53,841 nucleotides of DNA, from contig JAOAGY010000018.1 in NCBI GenBank assembly GCA_026415505.1, positions 1 to 53,841 of the forward strand. Reading direction: 5' to 3'. A program made the translations under genes and the position numbers. Every line of letters begins with the position of its first letter. The stretch's first letter is position 1. This document shows positions 51,184 to 53,841 of this stretch, piece by piece. Origin of the DNA: Chlorobiota bacterium. GTDB lineage: Bacteria > Bacteroidota > Ignavibacteria > Kapaibacteriales > NICIL-2. The notes beneath the pieces were generated by a model. The model saw only the letters and a program-made list of their open reading frames with translations. It was not told where the DNA came from and did no database searches.

Positions 51184-51438
51184 ATGCCACGTCGCGACAT
51201 TCCGCATTACCACGAATTCGTCTCGAAGGACGAACGCCCTGCTGTGGGGAAATGCTATCGCTGGTACTTGGGCGACGAGTACGTGTACACTGCACGCGTC
51301 GTCGAATTTCGGGGTGGATGCTGGGCTCGCGTCGAGATCGTCGAACCAGCGCCGCAACACGCATCGCTTTACTCGCCCGGCACAGCATTCGAGATCAAGG
51401 TCGCTCATTACACTTTCGAACCGAGCGACGAGTCGTGA
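51184..51438 (+). CDS. Small protein of unknown function
   Basis: 84 residues, from ATG at 51184, 28 nt after hutI. Rich in aromatic residues (HYHEFVSKDE, CYRWYLGDEYVYTARVVEF, WARVEIVEP), suggesting a small all-beta fold. I do not recognise it. Base usage (it still contains a GATC at 51,393) is like the core chromosome, so it probably belongs to the hutI transcript and not to the element beyond it. Confidence 0.5.
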   Translation: MPRRDIPHYHEFVSKDERPAVGKCYRWYLGDEYVYTARVVEFRGGCWARVEIVEPAPQHASLYSPGTAFEIKVAHYTFEPSDES

Positions 51439-51706
51439 ATGCACGTTGCTTCCCCTTTCTGGTGCAGTCGAGATAGCGCTTCGTTTCCGCTGCTACGAGA
51501 GTTTGGCGTTCGGTCAGTGCAGTTGTAGCCCCGAGAGAACTACCACCAAAACGCTAAGTACCAGTAAAAAACGGTACTTGCAAAAAGTTACTGATAATAC
51601 ACTGATGTTTCACCCGAAAAATACCCCAAAAACACGTGCAGCGACGCCCCTCGACCAGCGCCGCTGCACGTTGCCCGATTTTGTCACCAGCACGCTAACT
51701 TTCTTG
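51439..51706. other. Gene-free gap at the core/element boundary
   Basis: 268 nt without a convincing gene. From about 51,540 it is rich in A-runs. It holds one inverted repeat, AAGTACC/GGTACTT at 51,556-51,562 and 51,573-51,579 (10-nt loop). Nearby words CTTGCAAAAAG and GGTTGCAAGAG recall, but do not match, the repeat words further right. The GATC-free stretch starts just before it. An attachment site may lie here, but no integrase or direct repeat is visible to define it. Confidence 0.4.
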
Positions 51707-52483
51707 CTAAAAAGGTTGCAAGAGTAGTTGCAGGCTCCAACCCGAAAAAACGCGCCGAAGCCATCTTTGGCTGGTTAGCGATAACACCCCCACCGTGTCG
51801 CCGCGCGTCGCCTCGACGAATGCACCGTAACCGTCGCGAACGTATTTGCCGATACTTCGCTGGTACGTTTCGATTGCTGCTGTGTGTAGTGTTTCGAGTG
51901 TCTGATGGCGAAGTTTGGCGACGTTGTGTTTGCGTAGGTAATAGCCTATCTCGTCGAGTGTCGGTATTTCGTCGCTGGTAACCGTTGCCCCCTCGAAGGG
52001 CACGCCGACCGATACGACGACGTCGTAGGCACCGCAGAACCGTTCCAGGTCGCACCGCACACCGAAGGGTACCGCAACGATGTCGGCAACGCCAGCCAGC
52101 ATTTCCCAGCCCCGCAGCGCCTCTATTTCGTCACGCACCAGGACAACGCACCAGTTGCTGCTGCACACCCGCGACCCGAACGGTAGCAATTCGCCCCCGC
52201 TGTGGAACAGCCAGCCGCTGTGTCTGTGGTCGCGACCGACGACGTACCGTTTGCGCACGTTCCAGGTACGGTGCGCCTCGATGTCGGTTCCAGCCGGTAG
52301 GGTGTGGTTCCATAGTGCGCCAGCGACCGATTCAGCAATCCAGCGTACCGCACCCAGTTCGCCCGAAGGGGAAAAGTACAGCAACCCCAACGCCATACCG
52401 TTTGCCCCTGCGACCGATACCGTAACCGGTCGGCAACCGAAAACCACCGCTGGCAACAACTCCACCGACAGCCCCGCCGACAC
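51707..52483 (-). CDS. Unrecognised accessory protein, perhaps a degenerate Toprim-like replication protein
   Basis: 258 residues from GTG at 52483, which follows a GGAGGGG Shine-Dalgarno; an in-frame ATG at 52681 would add 66 residues encoded inside the upstream repeat. Nothing is firmly recognised. The middle (NWCVVLVRDEIEALRGWEMLAGVADIVAVPFGV) has the rhythm of a Toprim domain, where EGxxDAL is expected, but the catalytic Glu is Arg and no DxD follows, so any Toprim would be inactive. The C-terminus is helical (LRKHNVAKLRHQTLETLHTAAIETYQRSIGKYV). It lies downstream of the RepA-like gene and the 196-bp repeats, so a role in element replication is a guess. Confidence 0.5.
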   Translation of the reverse strand: MSAGLSVELLPAVVFGCRPVTVSVAGANGMALGLLYFSPSGELGAVRWIAESVAGALWNHTLPAGTDIEAHRTWNVRKRYVVGRDHRHSGWLFHSGGELLPFGSRVCSSNWCVVLVRDEIEALRGWEMLAGVADIVAVPFGVRCDLERFCGAYDVVVSVGVPFEGATVTSDEIPTLDEIGYYLRKHNVAKLRHQTLETLHTAAIETYQRSIGKYVRDGYGAFVEATRGDTVGVLSLTSQRWLRRVFSGWSLQLLLQPF

Positions 52484-52490
52484 CCTCGAA

Positions 52491-52882
52491 AGCCCCTCCA
52501 GGAAGTTGTGCAAAGGTTGTGCAGAAAAGGGGCAAGTTGTGCAAGAGCTATGCACAACTGAAAACCGCGAATTTGGCGCGTTTTCGCAGGTTTTCGGGGT
52601 GTTCGGGGCAAGTTGTGCAGTTGTGCAAACCCTATATGTGCACAATTGCACAACTTCGGTTTTGCCCGCCTCAGAAACCATCGCAAAGCCCCTCCAGGAA
52701 GTTTTGCAAAGGGGTCTGGAAATTGCACGATGTTTTGCAGGGGTCATGCAAAACTGAAACCCGCGATTTTGGCGCGTTTTCGCAGGTTTTTTGGGTGTCG
52801 AGGGGATGTTTTTCAGTTTTGCATACCCTATATGTGAAAAACTGCAAAACTTGATTTTCCGCCCGTTCAGAACCCATCGTTC
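52491..52882. repeat. Two gapless 196-bp tandem repeats with switched self-complementary words
   Basis: Unit 1 is 52,491-52,686 and unit 2 is 52,687-52,882. They align without gaps at about 73% identity (hand count, 52 differences). The best-kept parts are AGCCCCTCCAGGAAG at the left, GGCGCGTTTTCGCAGG in the centre and ACCCTATATGTG at the right. In unit 1 the recurring word is TTGTGCA and its complement TGCACAA; in unit 2 it is TTTTGCA and TGCAAAA at the same places. On the minus strand each unit ends with CCTGGAGGGGCTTT, a Shine-Dalgarno for the next gene. Confidence 0.9.
52671..52877 (-). CDS. Small Cys-rich ORF inside repeat unit 2
   Basis: 68 codons, ATG at 52877. It overlaps the end of the RepA-like gene by 11 nt (ATGGGTTCTGA) and ends with another 11-nt overlap (ATGGTTTCTGA) at the next ATG. 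A run of five or more G precedes the ATG. The reading (TYRVCKTEK...TCENAPKSR...NFLEGLCDGF) resembles that of unit 1, but the DNA constraint seems to be on palindromes, so the frame may be open mainly to carry ribosomes through the repeat. Whether a useful protein is made is unclear. Confidence 0.35.
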   Translation of the reverse strand: MGSERAENQVLQFFTYRVCKTEKHPLDTQKTCENAPKSRVSVLHDPCKTSCNFQTPLQNFLEGLCDGF

Positions 52883-53841
52883 AGCCCCCCTCGAAGATGG
52901 TACTTGTAGCCCGCCTTGCGATTGCCTTCGCGACGAATTCGCCCGTCACGTAACAGGGCATGTAGCGAACGGTGTACGGTCACGTTGTCGAGATTCGGTT
53001 CGTCACCTTTCAGGTATTCGAGAATTTGCTTCGCCGTCGCCCCTTCGTGCGTTCGTAGGTATTCGACAATTCGCCCCAGCCGACCGAACAGAACCTCGTG
53101 TGTCAATTCAAGCCGACCGTCTGTTTCTTTGGCGCACACCAGCCGCGTTTCCCAGCGCTTCGACGGTTCCAGCAGCGACGCCTTCGTCAGTTTCAGTTCG
53201 TAGTACGTTTCGCCGTCGCCAGTTTCTTCGTCCTCGACCGCACGAATCAGAATTTGCGACCGCGAACCGTTCGTCTTGTACACCGAACCGTAGGGCAACG
53301 CCGTTTCGCTATTTGCCCGTGCGTCTGATTTTGGTATGTGGTCAATTACCACAACGCCGCAATTGTACGCCTTGCAAAGGTCGCGAAGCCCCTTCATTGT
53401 CGCCGTGACCGTTTCCGTGTCGTTTGCGTCGCCGTTGTGTGCGTACTGGAACGAATCCACTACCACCAGGGCAGGTTCGAATTCGTACAGCATCGCCCCC
53501 AGCTTGTCGAAGTCTGCAGCCCCGCTTTTGGTGACCGGTAAGCCGTCGCTGATGTAGTAGAACGGGGTGACCGTTTCCGCAGCAGGCAGGGCAAGTTTGC
53601 CGACACGCTGGGCAACGGTCAAGGGTTCGTCTTCGCCCAGTTGTTCGAAGTCCAGGTAAACGACCGAACGCCCTTCGAGTAATTCACGATTGACCGGAAA
53701 ACCCAGCCATTCGGTCGCCCCTTGCGCAATCGAAATACAGCAGTGCAGCGCCAAGAGTGATTTTCCGCTTTCCCCTCGACCGTACAGCCAGGTTAGGTGA
53801 CCGACCGGAACGACACCCTCGATAATCCATTGCGTTCCACC
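52867..53841 (-). CDS. RepA-like AAA/RecA-fold ATPase with C-terminal winged helix (5' end cut off)
   Basis: The frame stays open to the window edge, so the gene starts beyond it; 324 codons are visible. The first visible part reads WIIEGVVPVGHLTWLYGRGESGKSLLALH with Walker A GRGESGKS. VVYLDFEQ, the Walker B ALVVVDSF, VVVIDHIPKS and GSVYKTNGSRSQI are the order seen in RepA/AAA_25 plasmid and phage ATPases. A winged-helix-like tail (GRIVEYLRTHEGATAKQILEYLKGD...VHRSLHALLRDGRIRREG) would bind DNA. It probably acts in replication of the mobile element. The TTG in frame at 53754 is internal. Its stop overlaps the small ORF by 11 nt. Confidence 0.8.
   Translation of the reverse strand, partial: GGTQWIIEGVVPVGHLTWLYGRGESGKSLLALHCCISIAQGATEWLGFPVNRELLEGRSVVYLDFEQLGEDEPLTVAQRVGKLALPAAETVTPFYYISDGLPVTKSGAADFDKLGAMLYEFEPALVVVDSFQYAHNGDANDTETVTATMKGLRDLCKAYNCGVVVIDHIPKSDARANSETALPYGSVYKTNGSRSQILIRAVEDEETGDGETYYELKLTKASLLEPSKRWETRLVCAKETDGRLELTHEVLFGRLGRIVEYLRTHEGATAKQILEYLKGDEPNLDNVTVHRSLHALLRDGRIRREGNRKAGYKYHLRGGLNDGF

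Follow-up and report, generated by a model that had tools for sequence, protein, structure and literature searches.

Element 1, the subject of this study, is an integrated mobile element of about 4.4 kb that occupies a tRNA-Arg(CCT) gene of a Chlorobiota bacterium (order Kapaibacteriales) and contains not a single GATC. Its right half lies at the end of the window, by which is meant the whole 53,841-nucleotide stretch of contig JAOAGY010000018.1 (C41) that was analysed; the rest continues on C25 (also labelled L005), another of the 42 contigs of the 2.29-Mb host genome, G000. A relative, element 2, resides in a congener, G003. In these two nearly independent elements, selection against GATC is shown to exceed the effects of codon use, which is not the case in host genes. 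It is rather likely that the loss represents erasure of restriction targets by a small element as it moves back and forth between hosts that restrict GATC.

The window contains 360 GATC sites, of which 19 fall within positions 1-2,400 and the last is at 51393; none is found in 51397-53841 (no strand). Both the empty interval and the count of 19 had been given in a preliminary description of this DNA, and both were reproduced exactly. The other full 2,445-base bins of the window hold 11-22 sites each, and the longest distance between sites is 2,449 bases (cut by the contig end), the next longest being 1,079. The empty interval includes the end of a small open reading frame (ORF) and host intergenic sequence up to 51516, followed by the right half of the element, whose edge is at 51517; about 120 of the 2,445 GATC-free bases are therefore ordinary host sequence. 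By itself, the window piece would have been weak evidence for GATC loss because only 4.0 sites are expected from its own trinucleotides. The ends of C25 and of the window overlap by 141 identical bases, a length read as the assembler's word length, and the two contigs are probably joined here, judging by this overlap rather than by reads. Across the join, the GATC-free gap measures 4,902 bases (C25:14497 to about window 51393). A continuation of the element with an ordinary GATC frequency, envisaged in the preliminary description, was not encountered, as the C25 continuation is also GATC-free. The whole element of 4,427 bases (GC content 0.553) lacks GATC, GGCC, TTAA, and CTAG, whereas host windows of this length (n=254) contain 14-55 GATC, with a mean of 31.8. 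The number expected in element 1 is 16.8 by base composition, 10.3 by its own trinucleotides, and 8.5 by codon shuffle of four reading frames, in which synonymous codons are permuted inside each frame (0/2,000 shuffles reach zero).

The integration site is defined by several structural features. The order on C25 is core genes (the last of which we take from its sequence to be ybeY), tRNA-Arg(CCT) (L005:14790-14864), a tyrosine integrase gene (L005:15014-16237) with Phage_integrase, SAM_5, and Arm-DNA-bind_5 domains, a helix-turn-helix (HTH)/excisionase-like ORF named by eye, and an AAA_25 gene that leads into the window; the tRNA, integrase, and HTH/excisionase-like ORF all lie outside the window. 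The integrase is 149 bases from the tRNA. Exact 21-base direct repeats are present at both ends of the element: attL (L005:14852-14872) and, in the window, attR (51517..51537, minus strand), in which the tRNA-Arg(CCT) 3' end and its flank are duplicated. In all five congeners (G001-G005, which with G000 make up the genus set of six genomes), tRNA-Arg is directly followed by the small ORF found behind hutI in the window (51184..51438, plus strand), and the site is thus empty in each of them. This ORF is a core gene outside the element, with 62-76% identity in all five congeners; the hutI-like sequence beyond it is clear in four and weak in G003. ORF lists alone were rejected as proof of genes. 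The tRNA, integrase, repeats, and empty sites together bear out the earlier proposal that the GATC-free stretch belongs to a mobile element. The further proposal that the gap marks the element's boundary is accurate to within about 120-140 bases; the true edge is at 51517-51537, and these four features are better evidence for it. In general, integrative mobilizable elements carried in tRNA genes, like minimal phage satellites, are characterized by an integrase at the tRNA 3' end, an HTH/excisionase-like gene, a replication ATPase, and direct repeats. Element 1 has all of these. In contrast to such elements and satellites, it is only 4.4 kb long, and relaxase, capsid, and packaging genes were unrecognised in the frames scanned.

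Relatives of the AAA_25 gene occur only in the host genome itself and in G003 among 41 genomes searched, and at E 1e-25 or better in those two alone among the 123 genomes of the order. Element 2 of G003 sits behind tRNA-Glu, unlike element 1, and carries an integrase 54% identical to that of element 1, a matchless ORF, an HTH ORF (recognised by eye), and an AAA_25 gene product that is 34% identical. It is truncated, running to the contig end, where L007:7563-7599 resembles the Illumina transposase adapter, presumably an assembly artefact. The 3,952 bases of element 2 contain no GATC, whereas the 3.5 kb preceding the tRNA hold 20; 7.6 sites are expected by codon shuffle, and again 0/2,000 shuffles reach zero. 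The two integrases share 58.6% base identity, and 45 of 125 fourfold sites (36%) are identical. They are thus saturated, and element 2 is close to an independent sample; for this reason the shared absence of GATC reflects more than common descent.

GATC is the only one of the 16 palindromic 4-mers that is absent from both elements yet unavoided by the host. Its observed/expected ratio in G000 is 0.86 (trinucleotides), and 27 host ORFs contain 269 GATC versus 230 by codon shuffle. Both elements also have few or no GGCC, CTAG, and TTAA sites, and these gaps follow a genus-wide chromosomal avoidance (observed/expected ratios of 0.06, 0.08, and 0.14, respectively, in the G000 chromosome). The chromosome also avoids GTMKAC (codon-shuffle ratio 0.04 in L005 and sampled stretches). 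When GATC is left out, the tetranucleotide profile of element 1 agrees with that of G000 at 0.73 (0.76 +/- 0.07 for G000's own chunks) and that of element 2 at 0.72; the corresponding values against G013, a genome of another genus, are 0.56 and 0.63.

GATC content varies greatly across the order. In stretches sampled from 51 usable genomes of 52 (G076, all N, was excluded), 19 had GATC at or below 0.30 of expectation, including the two genera that are sister to this one within its family, at 0.14 and 0.20; G013 had 0 GATC versus 97 expected and G042 0 versus 51. The samples for G013, G034, and G044 include integrase-flanking stretches. Strong avoidance of TTAA (<0.5) is confined to this genus (6/6 genomes versus 0/45 others) and is common to both elements; these counts and that of 19/51 were taken by eye from the order-wide table. 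Integrase loci across the order (20, located by tblastn) revealed that 8/18 other integrases are GATC-free and that several of their genomes are GATC-poor throughout. Almost GATC-free chromosome stretches were observed in L107 and L098 (G013), L142 (G042), L108 and L099 (G034), and L154 (G090). Equally GATC-free stretches in core genes, which the preliminary description had named as a counter-indication, are thus lacking in this genus and present in other genera of the order. In G044 (L106, L115), a 9.7-kb integrase stretch has 0 GATC versus 30.6 expected, and another contig has 61 versus 60.0; the stretch is a further element of this kind or else belongs to a contaminant contig.

A candidate for the source of selection is found in the congeners. 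Neither D12 (Dam-type) nor C5 methylases were found in G000, but a D12 methylase is present in three of the six genus genomes (G001, G002, and G004), and in the same three it adjoins a PDDEXK_11 nuclease; the Dam-like methylase suggested earlier is thus missing from the host and present in three of its five congeners. The pair occupies a slot between genes that we take to be ahcY and der. The G001 nuclease beside the methylase matches PF20472. The best PDB match of the G001 methylase is DpnM, followed by E. coli Dam, both of which are GATC enzymes, and the methylases of G001 and G004 score 273.5 and 267 bits against TIGR00571, above its cut-off of 114.85. The Dam residues that read GATC, given as K9, Y119, L122, R124, and P134 in the available part of PMC10073500, are kept in G001 (by alignment) and in G002 and G004 (by eye). 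PDDEXK_11 adjoins a D12-type motif pair in 8/8 genomes having it (among 41). To judge from these matches, the PDDEXK_11 and Dam/DpnM-type pair is likely to be a GATC restriction system. In G000, the slot holds P0002 (L056:772-1476) in place of the pair; no ahcY match was obtained in G003 or G005. P0002 weakly resembles HARE-HTH (20.0 bits, cut-off 25.9), as it does a type II nuclease of PADLOC (4.5e-5), and no methylase was recognised beside it in G000. The homologue nearest to P0002 (G060, 24%) has as its neighbor what looks by eye to be a D12-like methylase. One reading of the slot is that it holds alternatives, either a GATC methylase with PDDEXK_11 or a lone P0002 that could be specific for methylated GATC. 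On this reading the population of the genus would be mixed in the manner of DpnI/DpnII, and resident 4-kb elements would be invisible to both through GATC erasure. We regard this scenario as distinctly unlikely.

For target erasure, the proposed course of events is as follows. On moving between cells, the element would encounter a type II restriction system directed at GATC, the candidate being the nuclease and methylase of the three congeners' ahcY-der slot. Current hosts lack that methylase, and a departing element would be unmethylated and cut at every GATC. At its size it could not accommodate a protective methylase, and each GATC may instead have been lost by point mutation; an element free of GATC would be immune whatever its methylation state. 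In this account, which is inferred, GATC is cut by the pair, the elements pass through hosts that possess it, and they escape by losing their sites. The pressure is attributed to other hosts because G000 has no Dam-type methylase, apparently has only RGATCY as a GATC-containing target, and does not avoid GATC in its chromosome. The preliminary description's view that GATC-specific restriction shaped the element is therefore upheld with respect to selection beyond codon use and the likely system in three of five congeners; the present host, which has no such methylase and leaves GATC unavoided, does not fit it.

Several observations weigh against target erasure. The GATC specificity and activity of the pair are predicted from sequence. 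Neither element's genome carries the pair, and the D12 methylase is absent from G005, as from G000 and G003. The element was not encountered in any host that restricts GATC, and shuttling is thus inferred. Only two elements are known, one of them truncated. GATC depletion is weak where the pair is present (0.65-0.76 versus 0.74-0.86 in genomes that lack it). In element 1 (L005:14852-17094 plus window 51517-53700), the non-palindromes GAGC (5 versus 27.9 expected), GGAC, and CGGA are strongly depleted as well, which is unaccounted for by restriction with a palindrome cutter.

Avoidance of GATC is widespread in the order, and foreign origin is a real rival: the family could derive from a GATC-free genus of the order, having entered too recently to gain GATC. 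The 19 GATC-poor genomes, sister genera included, are in keeping with such a source, as are the eight GATC-free integrases, several of which have a GATC-free surrounding chromosome. However, apart from GATC, the tetranucleotide profiles of both elements are closest to this genus, both share the TTAA avoidance that marks this genus alone, and no other genome of the order has an AAA_25 relative at the threshold given above. A foreign source is accordingly possible but unlikely, and it would leave restriction possible as the cause, merely moved to another host. Mutational bias, codon-pair context, or MutH-like repair could in principle have removed GATC in place of restriction. The depletion of several non-palindromic words in element 1 favors causes of this kind, and MutH toxicity is mentioned as a possible reason for GATC avoidance in the accessible text of PMC4687349; yet the absence is total, concerns a single palindrome, and is found in both elements, whereas host genes on the same chromosome hold more GATC than shuffled ones. 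These causes are, in our judgment, decidedly improbable.

The host's own restriction repertoire offers a further explanation, namely that a BglII/BstYI-like system recognizing RGATCY alone removed GATC. G000 has four N6/N4 methylases; three adjoin nucleases of the BglII, MjaI, and NotI families, and the fourth adjoins a small ORF that appears by eye to be a PD-(D/E)XK protein. The target of the MjaI family is presumably CTAG. The BglII-family (PF09195) nuclease (E 3.6e-25) lies beside its N6/N4 methylase, and RGATCY occurs 14 times versus 61 expected. By sequence (found/expected), AGATCT (1/17.0), AGATCC/GGATCT (8/20.2), and GGATCC (5/23.9) are all reduced, whereas CGATCG (502/545) and TGATCA (43/43.9) are not avoided. 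This pattern appears to be the footprint of an RGATCY enzyme, RGATCY being apparently the only GATC-containing target of the host. A PF09195 enzyme of that specificity has been published (PMC10734518). RGATCY, however, makes up only 1.6 of the 8.5 sites expected in element 1 and 1.2 of the 7.6 expected in element 2, and the remaining contexts are gone as well: non-RGATCY contexts number 0 versus 6.89 expected in element 1 (0/4,000 shuffles) and 0 versus 6.35 in element 2 (1/4,000 shuffles). In addition, G003 has no clear RGATCY avoidance (AGATCT 2/2.0, AGATCC 3/3.9, GGATCC 4/7.6). As the sole cause, the host system is contradicted by the missing non-RGATCY contexts, unless its enzyme were to cut GATC in general inside the cell, and is highly improbable. 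The post hoc choice of one word, with 136 four-letter words available to pick from, could make a chance gap seem meaningful; chance was nonetheless rejected, as the second element, with saturated silent sites, also has 0 GATC, and is a vanishingly small prospect.

The target erasure proposed for element 1 is comparable to restriction avoidance in other systems. In the available text of PMC10359461, small plasmids adapt to restriction by target loss, and targets of their own order explain most of the avoidance. Like those plasmids, element 1 is small, has no methylase, and loses restriction targets of its order, and host genes avoid them less; unlike those plasmids, for which mainly 6-base targets are described there, it sits integrated within a tRNA gene and has completely lost its target, a palindrome of 4 bases. 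GATC avoidance has been suggested, in the portion of PMC4687349 available, to make exchange easier where strains are unlike in GATC methylation. The DpnI/DpnII dimorphism of S. pneumoniae (PMC4687349 and PMC3573125, each as far as its accessible text goes) is similar in that relatives differ in GATC methylation or restriction and fewer GATC ease DNA exchange. The avoidance described in that part of PMC4687349 is chromosomal, whereas here the element alone avoids GATC. No DpnI-like enzyme was identified, unlike in S. pneumoniae (the DpnI family was not searched for), and the nuclease of the congeners is a PDDEXK_11 protein, not an established DpnII. Element 1 therefore fits the accessible parts of PMC10359461 and PMC4687349 and widens their scope to an integrated element of 4.4 kb from which every target is gone. 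A limited literature search (titles and abstract openings) found no earlier report of a GATC-free integrative element. The case is a clean one, in that integrated element and chromosome are alike in most sequence biases except one restriction target, and such a contrast lets one ask through which hosts an element has passed. GATC-free gaps could be a cheap marker for such elements where genomic GATC is common, and the order's GATC range, from none to normal, is a natural series for testing the effect of restriction on gene flow.

Two ORFs of element 1 lie in the window. ORF4 (51707..52471, minus strand) encodes 254 aa; its start is uncertain, as the frame is open up to 52747 through repeats. 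No family, PDB, or PHROGs match was found for ORF4, and its AlphaFold model is unusable (mean pLDDT, a predicted local confidence score, 32.7). The 3' part of the AAA_25 gene, which encodes a RepA/helicase-like ATPase, is at 52867..53841 (minus strand; 324 aa, or about 362 aa once joined to C25), and its PHROGs matches are exclusively replication-type, regulator, or unknown. No relaxase family was detected in the three frames scanned (those of the integrase, of AAA_25, and of ORF4, the last being matchless), the small HTH ORF being outside the scan; no capsid or packaging gene was recognised in the element 1 frames scanned. Scans of viral contigs with AAA_25, ORF4, and an integrase alignment yielded no confirmed relative, and tblastn searches of phages and plasmids with element 1 proteins yielded distant integrases or ATPases at most, or nothing.

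Downstream of the AAA_25 gene are two tandem copies (52489..52888, no strand) that are 77% alike at a spacing of 196 bases. Hairpin 1 (52610..52656, no strand) consists of inverted TTGTGCA repeats around a CATATAGGG loop (z -4.65) and is a candidate origin or operator. The weaker hairpin 2 (52808..52850, no strand; z -2.71) has TTTTGCA-type arms and the same loop as hairpin 1. A strong hairpin after AAA_25 is present in both elements (window 52605-52858; L007:7428-7484), with paired short repeats and a ATATAGGG-like loop. It is a possible replication origin or operator in each, and although the letters of the repeats differ between the elements, the stem is kept.

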